Source: Liolophura sinensis
Taxonomy: Eukaryota; Mollusca; Polyplacophora; Chitonida; Chitonidae
Assembly: GCF_032854445.1 (NCBI RefSeq)
Contig: NC_088295.1
Location: 42,953,385 to 43,017,384, forward strand
DNA length: 64,000 nucleotides
Reading direction: 5' to 3'
Shown one piece after another: positions 24,701-63,081 of this stretch (positions are counted from its first letter, which is position 1; each line of letters opens with the position of its first letter). A model generated the notes under the pieces. That model was given only the letters and a program-made list of their open reading frames with translations. It did no database searches and had not been told where the DNA came from. Both the position numbers and the translations under genes were made by a program.

Positions 24701-27700
24701 TATGATAAACGTGCTCAAACAATCTGTCTCAACCTTTGTCTCTAATAATACTTTATACACATGTACTCTCTTTATCTAGAGTATATAAAACGTGATTCCA
24801 GCCAAAAGCTCAGACAGTTTTATTGATAAATGCTGATTAAATAGTTCCGCAAGAGGAGACAAGTGATGAGGCCAAGCCTAGATAAGCCTACATGTATGTG
24901 CGTCTCACAGGCTCCAAAGAAAAAGCTTGTCTATTGGTGGCAGTGATGTAAAATGAAAGGTAAAAAGTGACGCATACACTGTAAGGAGTGTGTGTCAGTC
25001 CCTTGACCATTGTGGCCGCTGGCTCAAATCCAGGTGTCTGTCAGCAGCTTTAAGTCATGGTTTTGACAAGTGCTTTTGGTGGTGTACAGTTGGCACTCTG
25101 GTTTCCTCCACAAAGCGATCACATATGTAAATATATACATTTATGAAGTGAACAAGAGGATCATTCAAATGAATTAAAGAAATATTATGATCGATGTTAA
25201 CAGGGAGCGTCACGGTTTGTCAGACAGTAAGTGTTCAAGACGAGAGACGAGGGAGAGAAGTCGAGGACGGGACAGACATGATGATGATGTCAGGGAGAAG
25301 AGACGAGATTCTGAACTGCAGATTGACAAGGCTAAATTACGAAAGATTGCCATGTGAGAAAGACAGATTTGTCCTTTATTTGTCACCAATTTTATTTTGT
25401 GTTTTATGGGCAAGCCGACACTAATAATCGAAAATGGAATAAAAATAAAATTGAAAATCAGTCTATTTTGTCCAGTCGTAATTATAATTACCTGTAATTA
25501 TCTTGGGGCCTCCGTGGCTCAGTTTTTCATGGATTTCCGATGACATAAATATGTCTTTAACACAAACAGTTACTTACTACAAGAGTAAATACTTCTCATA
25601 AAATACATGATTTTTAAGTTTTATATTTGTATCCTTCTCTGACATGAAAAGATATTCATTCTGCTTATGGTTGTGGAGACCTTAATGTCTAAACCTTTCA
25701 GCAGTGTAAATATTGTTTTTGTGAAACTTGTCAACATTAGCTCCAACTCAGATCCTGTCTCCTCTGATGGTTTGACAAAGTCTGAATACTGTGTACTGTT
25801 CATTCCTTTGACTGTGTCACAACAGGTTGCCAGATACTTGGAAATTTTTGTCAAATAATTCAATGTTTCAGAGCTAATGCAGTCAGTATGATGAAGACTG
25901 GTGGCTCAGGCCAAGCCAGTCTGGGGTCTGATACTCTAGTCAAGCTGAAGGCAGGAGGCAAGTCTGTAGAGGAACTTACAGGTTAGTCCAAGTTTTTGTA
26001 ACAAGGGAATACAGTGTACATGTGGAGCTGTATATCACAGGAGGCAAGTCTGCAGAGGAACTTACAGGTTAGTCCAGGTTTTTGTAACACAGGAATACAG
26101 TGTACATGTGGAGCTGTATATCGCAGGAGGCAAGTCTGCAGAGGAACTTACAGGTTAGTCCAAGCTTTTGTAACAAGGGAATACAGTGTACGTGTACAGC
26201 TTTATATCCCTGAATATCGCAGGAGGCAAGTCTGTAGAGGAACTTACAGGTTAGTCCAGGTTTTTGTAACAAGGGAATACAGTGAACATGTACAACTGTA
26301 TATCCCTGAATATCAGAGATGTTATCTTCATTAAAGGAGAACCCCAACATCTTTATTTTCACACTAATTGTTCATTAAACACAATATTTGTGCTATCTTA
26401 GTCTGTAAACTGCATTTAAAAAACTATTATGTTGACTAGTTCCATTTAAAAAAACCCTATTAAGTTGGACATTCTGCTTACCTTGTCAACCGCGGAGGCC
26501 TGGCCAGGTGACGTCATGCCGTGATTACCTGCCAGGATTATGTTTTGAAAAGCCCTGCAAAGCATAGCCGAATCCATGTATTAGGCCTACTCGCTGTGTA
26601 GTTTTCCAGAAGCTATCGTGTGACTTAACCTATAATTACCCCTACATGTCCACCTCTTATAATTAGCACCCTGAAATTAATATAAGTAAAACAGTTTTAC
26701 AACAAATATTTTGAAAGATAGACTAGCAGAGTTCGAAAATTAACTATTATAAATATCAGCTCTGGGAATAGTGTATACAGCATAGCAACTGGGCGATACG
26801 ATGACCGATTTTCGCTCGCACATCAGCCACGTAGGTGACACAAATGCGCTCCCATCTGGCTTATCTGACACAAATTGGACATCCACCGAATATAGTTAGA
26901 CCTGTGGGGAATTTGGCACGTTTTCACAGTTAACAGACTAAAAATTTTTATAGCCAAGTTGAGCAATATCGGCCGTGACACAAAAATCCATGCAGCCGAT
27001 TGTGAGTTGCATTGACGACAACAATCTGTTATCAAAACCGGCGAAACTAACAAATGAGGTAATCTTTTATGTTTTAAAAAAGTATCACAAGCAAAAATTA
27101 ATAAGTTTTGAATTATATTGACTGGAAACAGCGCTTAGAAGCACCTAGAAATGGCAGTTTAATATTTGTTTGCGTTTCAGTTACAGGCTTCATTACAGGA
27201 ATTAGCAAATCTCAGTAGAGACACTAAATCTTGGTAGATGTCAAGACTATGATCGAGTCCTCCACGTTTTTGACAAGATCTGGTCCATATTTTGTAAATC
27301 TGTGCCATTTTTTAGGCCATGTATGTAGCATTACAGTATCGTGTGTTGTATAACTGCAGTCGCAAGCCACGCTTGGGCATAGAATAATCTCGAAATTATC
27401 TGTAATAGTATAACGATGTTTCCTGCTGTCTGTGTTGCACGCATGGAGAAGCCTGTATCAGATGTCTGCAGTGAATGTACTGCTGTGATGTCACAAGGTC
27501 AGTGGTGGCTCAATTGTTGTGGGGTAGAATCTTCTGATGTTTTATCACCAAATGCTGTTGTTTTTCTTCCGTTCTTGACGTTTTAAACGATTGGAATGGA
27601 TTCAGGGGACATCCAGCTGTCTGCCTGCAGTTTGGAAAGCTCAGCATTAGGGATCCACTTTAACACCATCAGAAATTCTTTTTCATTTTGTCAAAACACC

Positions 27701-30700: not shown

Positions 30701-33700
30701 AATCAGCTGTTAATAATTTTACTCTTTGAATATTTAATCTTAGTTCAACTTTACATCTTTGCCAATCATTAAACAAAAGTTGAGAGGGCTCTCTCTAAAA
30801 TGTTGGCATATTCCATTTATAAGGTTCACAAGGTTTTGATCATAAACTGTAAGTTGCATAATAACTTGATATAGGGCTTCTTTGATAGGTGGGTCTGTGA
30901 TAGAAAAGACATGTGAACCATATCAGTTTCGTATTTCAGGTGAACTTGACGTCAGTGAAAGGAACATCGGCCACATTGCCACTGTCCCACAGTATCTTGA
31001 GACCTCACACTACCAGTGGGTAAAAAAAAAAACATGCTTTGCAACACAAGTGTCATCTTGAGAGGGAGAATTGTGAAATTCTCAAGGTGCATAAAAGCAA
31101 AATCAGTGAAAAAAACAATTCAGTTCATTGGGCATACTGGATATTTATTCTGCCTTTGTTTACCAGATGCATGTAGCATTTAGTGTTCTCATCAGAAGTC
31201 TCAAGAGCTGTGGGAAATGGTACTGGCTGAATATATTGTAATTTCATCCTTTCTGAGAACAGCAAGCCTCGAAGAACAAATCTTGAACTGTTGTACAAAA
31301 ATTGCTTGAACAAATGACTTGTGTACAGATAGAACTTTAAATCCATGCTACATGTAGAATTTTGGTTCTCTACATTACAGCACACAGAAAAGGTACTAAG
31401 CAGTGTTCCAGGCAAACATTCATGCTGTATAATATTCTGAATTCTTATTTTACTGAACCCACAACTGTCAAGGTTAAGATGTATAAAGGATTACATCCTA
31501 GAGCTGTTCTCAGAAAGGGTTGGCAAAACTACTGCCCTGATCTGTAACAAGTGTTCTCTGCTGTGAGCCAGTGTTTGTACACTTGCCATCTGTCCACGTG
31601 CTTGATCCAGTACTGTTAAATGTGTACATTTAATATCTGAGTGAACAATTGACTGCCTGAGTAAGGTAAGGAAGATGTTGTCTTCAGAATAGGCTAGAAA
31701 GGCTAGGATCAGGTGTGCATTATGACACACAAATGCTAGGATCAGGTGTGTATTATGACTCTGAAAAGCTAGGATCAGGTGTGCATTATGTTACTGAATG
31801 GCTCAGGTCAGGTGTGCATTGTGACACTGGAAGGCTGGGATCAGGTGTGCATTTTCAGACTGAAAGGCTAGGATCAGGTGCGCATTATGACACACGAATG
31901 CTAGGTGTGCATTATGACACTGAAAAGCTAGGATTAGGTGTGCATTATGATACTGATTGACTCAGGTCAGGTGTGCATTGTGACACTGGAAGGCTGGGGT
32001 CAGGTGTGCATTTTCAGACTGAACGGCTAGGATCAGGTGCGCATTATGACACACAAATGCTAGGATCAGTTGTGCATTATGACACAGAAAAGCTAGGATC
32101 AGGTGTGCATTATGATACTGAATGACTCAGGTCAGGTGTGCATTGTGACACTGGAAGGCTGGGATCAGGTGTGCATTTTCAGACTGAAAGGCTCGGATCA
32201 GGTGCCCATTATGACACACAAATGCTAGGATCAGTTGTGCATTATGACACTGAAAAGCTAGGATCAGGTGTGCATTATGATACTGAATGGCTCAGGTCAG
32301 GTGTGCATTGTGATACTGGAAGGCTGGGATCATTTGTGCATTATGTCACAGAAAGGCTACGTTCAGATGTGCATTATGACAGAGTAAGGCTACGATCAGA
32401 TGTGTATTATGACACTGGAAGGCTCACACCAGTTGTATGTCATGAGACAGAAAGGCTTGGATCAGGTGTGTGGCAGCAGTCAGGTAACTTTTGTTGCAGA
32501 TCAGGTTTGTAGTGGAGCTTGTTTGCCAGCTGTATGATCTGTACCAGCTTCACCCCTTCTCTGCGTGCCAGACAAGTGACAAGCATTTTCTTAGGTAAGT
32601 CATCATGTCAGCTCTCAGCCACCTCCATACTTTCTCTTTCAAATTACTCAAACCAGTTTAACATCCTTTAACATAAAATCGATGGGCTTAAATCAAGTCA
32701 AATATTTTCTGTTGTAGCCTAATAGCCCAAATAATTATCTTTCACAAAATATCAGCCTCGTCTATGCATGTGTTACTTTTCAGAATCAGTAAATAAAGTC
32801 CTTAAAATTCATAAAGCAAGTTGCATTATAACTTTTTCAAACTTTAGAATCTTTTTAACACAATAAATAGTACAGTTACGAATCCAATATATACTGAAAG
32901 GTAATAATTTGAGCTAACCTTTCTTCGTCAATACAGAAATTTTGGTTTGATTACCTAATGTGGATTTTTTGCCAAGTCTGGTATATACATTTAAGTAATA
33001 TTTTGAACCAGATCAAGGCCTATGAAGGAATAATACCTGTGAGGTAATTCATGTAGTAGCCTCATAAACTTCTTGGATTAAAGTCCTGGATAATGCCTAT
33101 CTTTTATACATTGTAAAAATAAGGGAACAATGAAGGAGTATAGAAATTCTGCTACTGGTAATGTTTTCTTATCAACTGGAGTTGGTGGCTAGTCCTGAAT
33201 TGATGGTCAGTATTATTTATACATGTATGTTTTTTTGTTGTTTTTTTGTTCAAAGGACAAATTTGAAAGCAGAATCAAATGTAATATAGGAAAGTCAAAG
33301 GATTTCAACTTAAGAAAATTTTTCATTGCGCTTGACAATATAATGTGTGTTTGTACATCAAAGTAACGTGCCAAAGGTCAGTAGTTTAGGCCAGGGTACT
33401 CCTCCTCGCATAAAAATGACAGCCATTATACAGGTGAAAAATTCTTTACTATGGTGTGAACAACAGTCAAATAAACAAACCAGATATAATCAGAGATATT
33501 TTTTTTAAATGCCTACATAAAATTATTCATTTTGAATTACTGCCGTTGATTATTATCTCCTTTTAAATTGTCTCTCTTCTTATTTTGCCTTTCATTAGGA
33601 GCAGTTAACCACAGCCGCGCCTCTCTCTGGTGGGCTTGGCATGATGATGTTACAGAAACTGGGCTGGAAACAGGGAGAAGGGTTGGGCAAGAACAAAGAT

Positions 33701-59351: not shown

Positions 59352-62300
59352 CTATGTCCTCCTGTATAATCGGGCAGCACGGACAAACGGTCGTCTTTGA
59401 TATCTGGTGAGAAACACGTTCCTGAAACAGTCAACAAAGATTGCCGACAACCCGCAAACAGTCTGCGTGACGAAGCGAAACATTTCATGATTCATGATCC
59501 TGTTTTTATTGTTAAATTTCAGTACGCGGTCTCGATTTTCCGTACGTTTTTTAGCCTATAAAGTGAGATATACCTACATATATTCTATGAAATTAATAAT
59601 ATTTAATTATAGACAGGAAATTCATCTCTACCATCGGGGCACTATCCTTTCGCGACAAGTGTACTAAAGAACTAGTTGTATGCAGAAATATAGACGTGCT
59701 TAATTCTGGTTTCATTTGGTTTAATACTTAAATCAGTTGTTATATTCTAATTCTTCTGAGTTGCTTTTGACTCATACCTGAAGTCCTCAACCATCTGCAG
59801 AAGACCCTGTGTGATGTTTCTCTGGGGTCCTGCGGCGAAGAAATGTCTGGCATCCAATGTGATCTGTTCCAGTAAAGCGTCGTTGAGCGTGGATCGAGCC
59901 AGTCGTCCAGTCAGAGTATAAACCTAAAAGAGTCAATTCGAGAGTTACAAAACTGAAAAGAACCAAGTTAAATCTAAGTATTCACGCTGGACAATGAGGA
60001 GATTCAGTGTCACTTTCCATTCGCGTGTGTGTAGTTCAGACAGTGGACATGTGCCTGAATAACAACTGTGTAGGTCGCACTAGCACTGTAGTTAGCTTGA
60101 TCACAAGTGGTCTATTCTTTGCAGCGTATACATTGTCATCTACCTCATTCCGAAATTGTACATACCATCTGTTTATACCTACAGTAACAATGAAAACTCA
60201 TTGTTGTGTGTATGTATAAACCCGTGAAATGAAAATTCTCGAAAAATTCACATTTAAAAGCGAAAGGAAAGCTGTCGAGTAGTATTTATAGTCTCCCGCT
60301 GTATGCTCACACACCGTTGAAGTACGATCACGTGACATTTTCCATCAGACACGGGTGAAGAAATGTACCCTATATATGCGCCTAGACTCCAAAAAGTAAT
60401 TTGTTAATTTTAACAGAAAGTCTGTTGTCTGGGCGATGCCAAAAATGTGGTCTGTTATTATCACATAATATTCTGTCAAATTCAACATAACATCCTGTTA
60501 GTCCAATTAATAGACTGTGGGTTATATTTAATAGAACAATCTTCTGCAATAACAGCATGCATTCTAGCATCACTCAGACAACAGACTTAACAGATTAATT
60601 TTTTGAGTGTAGTTGTCACACCGGTGCAAAGTTTCATGGAATAGCCTATTAAATTAAGCCACGTGAAAAAAAAAAACCTAGTGTGCAATCCACTAAATGC
60701 CTCTTTGCCACAGACCTGTTGAACAGCTGCACGACGTTGTAAAGTTATAGAGTGTGTGTAAAGTTATAGATAGATGGATCGATGGGCGGACGACCAGACG
60801 GACGGACGGACCAGTGTTATCCAAGGGGTTAAAAAAAATTCACATTTTCGGCCTTCAGTGTACTTTATGCCGCATACTTTGATACCATCAATTGAGAATC
60901 CCAATCACCCTAACAAGCCGTTCCTGACGAACATACATTCTTCTAGGCCTGCACATATCCATAAAAAACATCTCGTTAGTGTACTTCCTCAAAAAAACTT
61001 CCAAGTGCCACTGAATGTAGTTACACTAGTTCACCTTGTATTTAAGTGAGGCTTTACTTACGATGTTCTGTTGCTGTGTGTAGAAGAGAAGAACCCACTC
61101 TCCGCACACACCAAAACTCCACCTCCTGCTGTATATACCATATGCGAACCGGCGCGTCTCCAGCAGCAATCTATCAGGGTTTGACCCACTACAATGTATA
61201 TTCATTACAGTATGATATTTTACAGTGGATTATGATTTATTTATCTATTTGCTTGGAATATGCGTCATCTCATTTACCTGGATAGGGGCCTAAGTTACTT
61301 GTAACTTGTATAGAATTCTGGCACGATGGCCACGGCTATCTGGTCACATACACTTGTAACTTGTATAGAATTTTGGCACGATGGCCAAGGTTATAACTGG
61401 TCACAAACATTTGTAACTTGCATAGAATTCTGGCACGATGGCCACGGCTATATCACATACATTGGAACTTGTATAGAATTCTGGCAGGATGCCCACGGCT
61501 ACCTGGTCACATACACTTACTTGTAGCTTGTATAGAATTCTGGCACGATGGCCACGGCTATCTGGTCACATACACTTACTTGTAACTTGTATAGAATTCT
61601 GGCACGATGGCCACGGCTATCTGGTCACATACACTTACTTATAACTTGTATAGAATTCTGGCACGATGGCCACGGCTATCTGGTCACATACACTTACTTG
61701 TAACTTGTATAGAATTCTGGCAGGATGCCCACGGCTACCTGGTCACATACACTTACTTGTAGCTTGTATAGAATTCTGGCACGATGGCCACGGCTATCTG
61801 GTCACATACACTTACTTGAAACTTGTATAGAATTCTGGCACGATGGCCACGGCTATCTGGTCACATACACTTACTTGTAACTTGTATAGAATTCTGGCAC
61901 GATGGCCACGGCTATCTGGTCACATACACTTACTTATAACTTGTATAGAATTCTGGCACGATGGCCACGGCTATCTGGTCACATACACTTACTTGTAACT
62001 TGTATAGAATTCTGGCACGATGGCCACGGCTATCTGGTCACATACACTTACTTGTAACTTGTATAGAATTCTAGCACGATGGCCACGGCTATCTGGTCAC
62101 ATACACTTACTTGTAACTTGTATAGAATTCTGGCACGATGGCCACGGCTATCTGGTCACATACACTTACTTGTAACTTGTATAGAATTCTGGCACGATGG
62201 CCACGGCTATCTGGTAGCCACTTCGTTTGGAGCGGATACAGGACTGAGCACCACACGGACATGTCGAATCAGTTAGAGTCTGGTTTATCAGTCTGTCGAT

Positions 62301-63081
62301 GGCGTTAGCTGAAAGCAAAATGCAAACTATGATTTTCAAAAAACTGAAAAATTATAGATTTATATAAAAACACATAGCGGCACTACAAAGTGTTTTTATG
62401 AAAACAATCGTGCCTGTATCTGAGTGAGAATAATTAAATGTCAAAACCTTTCTATTTTGCGGTTCATGTCGTAGCCCCTATGACCTTGAAGTTAGGGCAA
62501 CAGCGTCTATATAATTTTTATCATCAAGTTTCGCATATAAATTCTCCGGGTTTGTTCAGATTTACATGCATGCCACGAACGAACAAATTCATTTTGGAAA
62601 TGAAATTTTTTTAGCTAAAACTGTAACACTTTTGTGTTTCATTCATATGTCGCTTCAAAAGGCTCCAATATAATTATCATCTTTTTTGCCAAAGACTTGA
62701 CGGTAAATTTCCGTAAAGGACGAATCCTTGGTCTGATACATACGTTTTAGCAAACTGAATTGTTCTCCATGAAATCACGGTTTGCTACTTGCTAATTATA
62801 CCAGAATGGACTTTAATGTGCTTAAATGGTACAGATTTGAGCAAAACATGAGGAAATGGACACGACAAAATTTGATTTAATGATTTACCTCCCTTGTAGG
62901 AGATGAGATGATTCGGATCGCAGATGTAAGATGGCTTATTCCTCCCACAGCGTCCAAACTCGTTTTGAGGATTAGGGAATTGGCTCCAGTGCCATTTCAG
63001 TGGTATCTGGGTGGGCGCAATCTGGGCGTGGACTGTTGCTATGACAACGACGACCATGCACAGTAATGGTTTGGTGTCCAT
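59352..63081 (-). CDS. Secreted MOLO1-family (TPM-domain-like) protein
   Basis: Exons in transcript order: 63081-62889, 62308-62170, 61170-61062, 59923-59778 and 59421-59352. All phases match, giving 218 residues. A signal peptide (MDTKPLLCMVVVVIATVHAQ) is followed by the family pattern WSQFPNPQNEFGRCGR, SYICDPNHLIS, AIDRLINQTL, CPCGAQSC, GYQIAVAIVPEF, WSFGVCGEWVLLFY, NIVYTLTGRLARSTL and a helical C-terminal part ending MVEDFRNVF. The family's founder, C. elegans MOLO-1, is an auxiliary subunit of levamisole-type acetylcholine receptors. The six domain cysteines suggest extracellular folding. Unlike MOLO-1, no C-terminal membrane helix is seen, so this form should be secreted unless the small last exon is wrong. 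Intron 2 is filled by copies of the exon 2 tail. Confidence 0.8.
60404..60598 (-). mobile_element. MITE family C, opposite-orientation copy
   Basis: Bounded by TTAA. Terminal inverted repeats are visible as GTCTGTTGTCTGGGCGATGC at the left and GCATCACTCAGACAACAGAC at the right. It aligns in reverse complement with 18928-19140. It lies in an intron of the MOLO1-like gene. Confidence 0.75.
61293..62214 (-). repeat. 59-bp tandem array of the MOLO1-like exon 2 tail and its splice donor
   Basis: About 16 units. Each has 44 bases identical or nearly so to the end of exon 2 (encoding QIAVAIVPEFYTSY and AA) plus 15 intron bases starting GTAAGTGTATGTG. The rightmost unit is the real exon end (62170-62214). 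Variants (CAGGATGCCC, TGTAGC, TATAAC in plus reading) recur every four to five units, so a higher-order pattern is present. The three leftmost units are most diverged. Confidence 0.95.

Follow-up and report, generated by a model that had tools for sequence, protein, structure and literature searches.

The window, a stretch of 64,000 nucleotides from the chiton Liolophura sinensis, harbours on its minus strand a MOLO1-like gene, three coding exons of which were delineated (Table 1). Exons 1 and 2 matched the Pfam profile MOLO1 (PF17175; E value 5.1e-14, profile positions 1-80), and exons 1-3, when joined, scored 55.4 bits (E value 9e-15, profile positions 15-121 of 122), exceeding the curated cut-off of 27 bits across the domain. 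After splicing across the tandem array that follows exon 2, exons 1-3 provide 153 open codons; as these exons give an open MOLO1 domain when joined, the array sits within intron 2. Exon 3 was located by a motif scan of the window, its expected look being taken from a MOLO1 paralogue at 65.26 Mb of contig C1; an earlier guess in another frame was rejected, scoring 42.9 bits against MOLO1 as compared with 55.4 for the right exon. No exon 4 emerged from a simple motif scan, exon 3 of the paralogue as a genome query matched only the paralogue itself, and a PF04536 profile search of the genome returned no match; nor did a search for the GFP family, a result that does not demonstrate its absence. 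A weak MOLO1 match below the cut-off, interrupted by four internal stop codons, was observed at G000:C10:26322081-26322320 and is possibly a broken copy or a set of exons read through an intron. The paralogue itself carries in intron 1, just 5' of exon 2, a 30-bp tandem duplication (L010 8052-8108, that is, C1:65262052-65262108; 1.9 copies with 100% matches).

Table 1. Positions in the window of the MOLO1-like gene, its 59-bp array and a second exon-edge array.
Feature	Positions	Strand	Remarks
SON-like G-patch gene, exon	25872..25981	+	tail and donor repeated
Second exon-edge array	25952..26304	+	four copies at intervals of 86-96 bp, all with CAG before GTTAGT
MOLO1-like coding exon 3	61062..61188	-	127 nt
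MOLO1-like intron 2	61189..62169	-	981 bp
Four degraded array copies	61293..61503	-	51, 57 and 55 bp plus the last; donors lost or weak
59-bp tandem array	61295..62215	-	16 copies, the true exon edge being one of them; Tandem Repeats Finder and unit-by-unit reading
11 decoy GTAAGT donors	61515..62110	-	predicted U1 duplex as for the true donor
MOLO1-like true donor GTAAGT	62164..62169	-	first intron bases; GT at 62169
MOLO1-like coding exon 2	62170..62308	-	139 nt, phase 2 at end
MOLO1-like coding exon 1	62889..63081	-	193 nt from ATG, phase 1 at end

The MOLO1 array is an exon-edge minisatellite. Tandem Repeats Finder reported a period of 59 bp (12.9 copies, 96% matches, 61454-62215) as well as a 177-bp row (61295-62215), and the 16 copies counted by unit-by-unit reading agree with the about 16-fold repetition of exon tail and donor that a sequence-only reading had proposed. 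Each unit consists of 41 bp of exon and an 18-bp linker that begins with GTAAGT, the exon part being the last 41-46 nt of exon 2. Because ACCAG occurs at both unit borders (close by in the preceding exon sequence and where the linker ends), the unit can be divided anywhere from 41+18 to 46+13; the 59-bp length proposed earlier holds, and its division into 44 exon and 15 intron bases is one of several splits. Of the 981 bp that make up intron 2, 875 are array sequence. The array was found at a single location, on contig C1, in a search of the 609-Mb genome, some stretches of which read N.

The copy at the 5' edge is the exon itself and matches the consensus, and units 0-11 differ pairwise by 0-4 bases. 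GTAAGT is present in 12 of the 16 copies, the true donor included, leaving 11 strong decoys with their GTs at 62110, 62051, 61992, 61933, 61874, 61815, 61756, 61697, 61638, 61579 and 61520. The four copies proximal to exon 3 are degraded at the donor (two without GT, one with GTGTAT and one with GTAACT), and the last of them merges into unique intron sequence. The about 15 decoy donors expected previously were thus too many: 11 keep GTAAGT, two are weak and two are lost.

Exon 2 of the paralogue ends at the same place and in the same phase as that of the window gene, and a tandem-repeat search of the paralogue's intron 2 found no array. Thus the exon edge is older and the array derives from it, which upholds the proposed origin from an exon edge. 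Moreover, the sequences of units 4, 5 and 7 recur unchanged in units 9, 10 and 11, and three variants are common to units 8 and 12; a block of units was therefore duplicated, and the higher-order pattern noticed beforehand is real. Such a duplication, together with a degraded far edge, is commonly seen where arrays undergo unequal exchange and decay at their edges. The occurrence of ACCAG at both borders would be compatible with a start by microhomology. Among the 12 full units, seven distinct substitutions were found, every one of them within the 41 bp derived from the exon; counted as sites, these are 9 of 492 in that part versus 0 of 204 in the linker (P value=0.065 if sites are treated as independent), which hints only weakly that the linker with its donor may be kept and does not suffice to claim constraint. 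Loss of the donor in the four copies proximal to exon 3 is explained by edge decay as well as by selection.

Reading past the true donor of the MOLO1-like gene gives TSYK and then a stop, so that frame reading confirmed the AAG TAA stop claimed for any transcript that passes this donor; the 41-nt decoy exon likewise reads into a stop as had been claimed, adding SYK to exon 2 before termination. Use of a decoy donor thus truncates the protein inside the MOLO1 domain. The predicted duplex with the 5' end of U1 (RNA modifications ignored) was from -8.2 to -8.6 kcal/mol for units 0-11, with the true donor within this range, and from -1.6 to -4.0 kcal/mol for units 12-15. Predicted accessibility was alike over the 12 GTAAGT sites and does not distinguish the true donor among them. 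Among the features measured, the only mark of the true donor is that it comes first in order, and splicing of the MOLO1 array most likely takes place at this first donor.

Arrays of the same kind were found in other genes. The window itself holds a second one, in a plus-strand gene with a G-patch (5.2e-12) that we take to resemble SON. Its array has four GTTAGT donors, all preceded by the repeated end of the exon, and the first of them is the true donor; a frame continued beyond this one meets a stop. The decoy exon here is 27 nt long and in frame, adding the nine residues GGKSAEELT, whereas that of the MOLO1 array leads to a stop. A third array (L033, C1:14889490-14890290) has a 44-bp unit and begins in an exon of RNA polymerase III RPC1 (match in PDB, 5.9e-8); its first donor, GTAAAT, has a predicted U1 duplex of -8.6, as compared with -13.2 and -13.5 for later decoys, and reading past it again gives a stop. 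The fourth (L034, C1:26352800-26353600) begins in an alpha-glucosidase exon (match in PDB, 9.5e-25) and has a 39-bp unit, that is, 13 codons; its first donor, GTATGT, is predicted at -8.6 and later decoys at -12.4. Throughout the piece read, no stop interrupts the frame of the 39-bp units; splicing at a later donor could thus yield protein as well, the true donor is uncertain, and this array may be spliced out or translated. The stronger decoys at RPC1 and alpha-glucosidase are partly built in, since the scan pattern that led to these loci required CAGGTAAGT. In total, four exon-edge arrays lie in unrelated genes of one genome.

The scan for CAGGTAAGT occurring three times at a spacing of 30-60 gave 382 overlapping matches genome-wide versus 176 for the reversed pattern, and that for another 9-mer gave 81 versus 144 backwards; because these are counts of overlapping matches and not of arrays, the only conclusion drawn is that such arrays exist. 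The CAGGTAAGT matches listed on C1 were grouped by eye into nine places, each read as an 801-bp piece. Two begin in the PDB-confirmed exons, one (L036) follows an open frame without a match, and the remaining six were judged by eye without protein search. In L035 (C1:34953000-34953800), one of these six, the units are 65 bp long, contain GTAAGT or GTAAAT and have a frame that looks coding (PLMVQNIIKEPNTLLPYQ); no parent exon was found for them.

To place these arrays among the repeats of the genome, 224 kb (the window plus 16 sampled 10-kb stretches) were surveyed: 44 repeat rows with a period of at least 18 covered about 5.8% of the bases, several neighbouring rows belonging to a single repeat (for example, five rows at L028 7267-7916). 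A donor matching eight of the nine consensus bases was carried by three of the 44 rows, as compared with about 1.96 expected from summed shuffle values. In the window alone it was two of ten rows, namely the MOLO1 array and 25952-26304, versus about 0.45 expected, which is above chance in a window that had been chosen for the finding. Repeat units are thus not clearly enriched for donors and, with the genome rich in minisatellites, the arrays are best explained by exon edges having been captured by chance.

Two further repeats were observed in passing. About 24 copies of a 33-bp tandem repeat occupy 31697-32470 of the window, with long, putatively coding open frames on the plus strand. On contig C99, mitochondrial cox1 is matched seven times at intervals of about 15.5 kb, and a long TA-rich simple repeat lies near cox3; the contig resembles mitochondrial genomes joined head to tail, a concatemer that the assembly would have retained. 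ARAGORN found no tRNA on the mitochondrial stretches, the gene order of which looks chiton- or abalone-like.

The array is very probably a neutral, chiton counterpart of the mirages, which are minisatellite-like tandem duplications of exon-intron boundaries described from amphioxus (Adh3, BflGb6, BflGb9, TnC and PGBD5; excerpts of PMC3087553 and PMC3902484). It would have started as a short tandem duplication of the exon 2 tail together with the donor and the adjoining bases of the intron, and would then have lengthened into the intron to 16 units through slippage or unequal exchange, while units at the far (3') edge decayed. Lying in the intron, the additional copies would be spliced out with it once the first donor, the one next to the exon, is joined to exon 3. 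The array itself is most likely neutral or mildly deleterious; it would be tolerated because exon definition and the order of transcription pick the first donor, and the density of minisatellites in the genome could account for the recurrence of exon-edge arrays.

The most serious alternative, which we nonetheless hold to be unlikely, is that the decoys act as poison donors: some transcripts would use a decoy, meet the stop and be degraded or truncated, with copy number setting their share and the output of the MOLO1-like gene being lowered. That eleven decoys equal the true donor in predicted U1 pairing and are alike in predicted accessibility, with a stop on decoy use, is what such a device would look like; however, the like arrays in unrelated genes (Pol III RPC1 and SON-like) point to a by-product, and published mirages are said, in the available text of PMC3087553 and PMC3902484, not to disturb splicing. 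The suggestion that the array tunes splicing or dosage is unsupported. The other possibility raised with it, that of a neutral satellite derived from an exon edge, is the better fit, since the array is of a described kind and has its like in unrelated genes.

It is very improbable that the decoy units are new introns or exons on their way to recruitment, although this route was modelled for amphioxus globins (PMC3087553, in part) and could draw on the in-frame SON-like decoy exon and the open alpha-glucosidase units. The 41-nt decoy exon of MOLO1 gives a stop and, as general knowledge has it, linkers of 18 nt are too short for introns, both of which speak against it. Least credible is a single unit multiplied by misassembled reads, for although tandem arrays are common sites of error, HiFi cover of the Liolophura japonica assembly was 14-fold (PMC11068029, in part) and one mirage was aberrantly assembled in the amphioxus draft (PMC3087553, in part), the copies show distinct, patterned variants and degraded edge units, and the HiFi reads, averaging 8,347 bp, far exceed the 0.9-kb array (PMC11068029). 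The exact copy number of the MOLO1 array may differ between haplotypes.

With the neutral exon-edge minisatellite as the preferred reading, the anatomy itself is already described, and the value of the array lies in its host, its high copy number, its recurrence and the clean test it offers of first-donor choice. Mirages would be extended from lancelets to a mollusc and, with four arrays in one genome, may commonly arise as a by-product where minisatellites abound, and so not be peculiar to lancelets. Furthermore, the true donors of MOLO1 and RPC1 precede equal or better ones, and reading past them hits a stop, which makes these loci a natural experiment on donor choice. More tentatively, and with some doubt on our part, chitons might carry mirages recurrently and their spliceosome might take the exon-proximal donor despite donors tens of bases downstream that are identical (MOLO1 and SON-like) or several kcal/mol stronger (RPC1). 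Were this so, donor strength would not be decisive and the loci would form natural, graded tests of exon definition; array length would possibly tune leakage into truncated transcripts, and the in-frame arrays (alpha-glucosidase and the SON-like decoy exons) would offer a route to new coding sequence.

Several known systems resemble the chiton arrays in part, as judged from the excerpts available of each paper. In the AGGT model, introns are gained through tandem genomic duplication (PMC3443670), which likewise copies splice signals; however, the chiton copies lie in an existing intron and no new intron was seen. Human segmentally duplicated genes bear variable internal tandem repeats where exons meet introns, and alternative transcripts as well as new introns are reported for them (PMC2812944); the repeats are likewise minisatellites at exon edges and can change splicing, but transcripts are reported there, whereas the chiton array was read from DNA alone. 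An earthworm has intronic minisatellites and exon duplicates that reportedly do not enter the final transcript (PMC12783039), and no exon-edge array was seen in the available part of that paper. Among the matches listed from the open-licence literature, no mirage outside lancelets and no exon-edge array outside chordates was seen.

The closest likeness is that to the amphioxus mirages themselves, again as far as the excerpts go. Their units are 10 to 160 bp long, with inner copies homogenised and copies at the cluster edge exempt (PMC3087553, PMC3902484); the chiton unit also spans an exon edge and a splice signal, its extra copies are intronic, its 59 bp is minisatellite-sized, and its inner copies are homogenised with the last four, at the 3' edge, degraded. 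In amphioxus, RT-PCR suggests regular splicing and haplotypes differ in length (PMC3087553), evidence of a kind that belongs to amphioxus, whereas the chiton array is known from the sequence of one assembly; there, an open MOLO1 frame would need the first donor. Length instability is reported for mirages (PMC3087553, PMC3902484; PGBD5 is described and Adh and TnC are mentioned in the latter), and in the chiton a duplicated block of units was observed within one assembly. The 16 chiton copies compare with 6 and 3 in the two haplotypes of BflGb6 (PMC3087553). Finally, the host is a mollusc in contrast to the reported cephalochordate range, which reflects the place of description and not a structural requirement.
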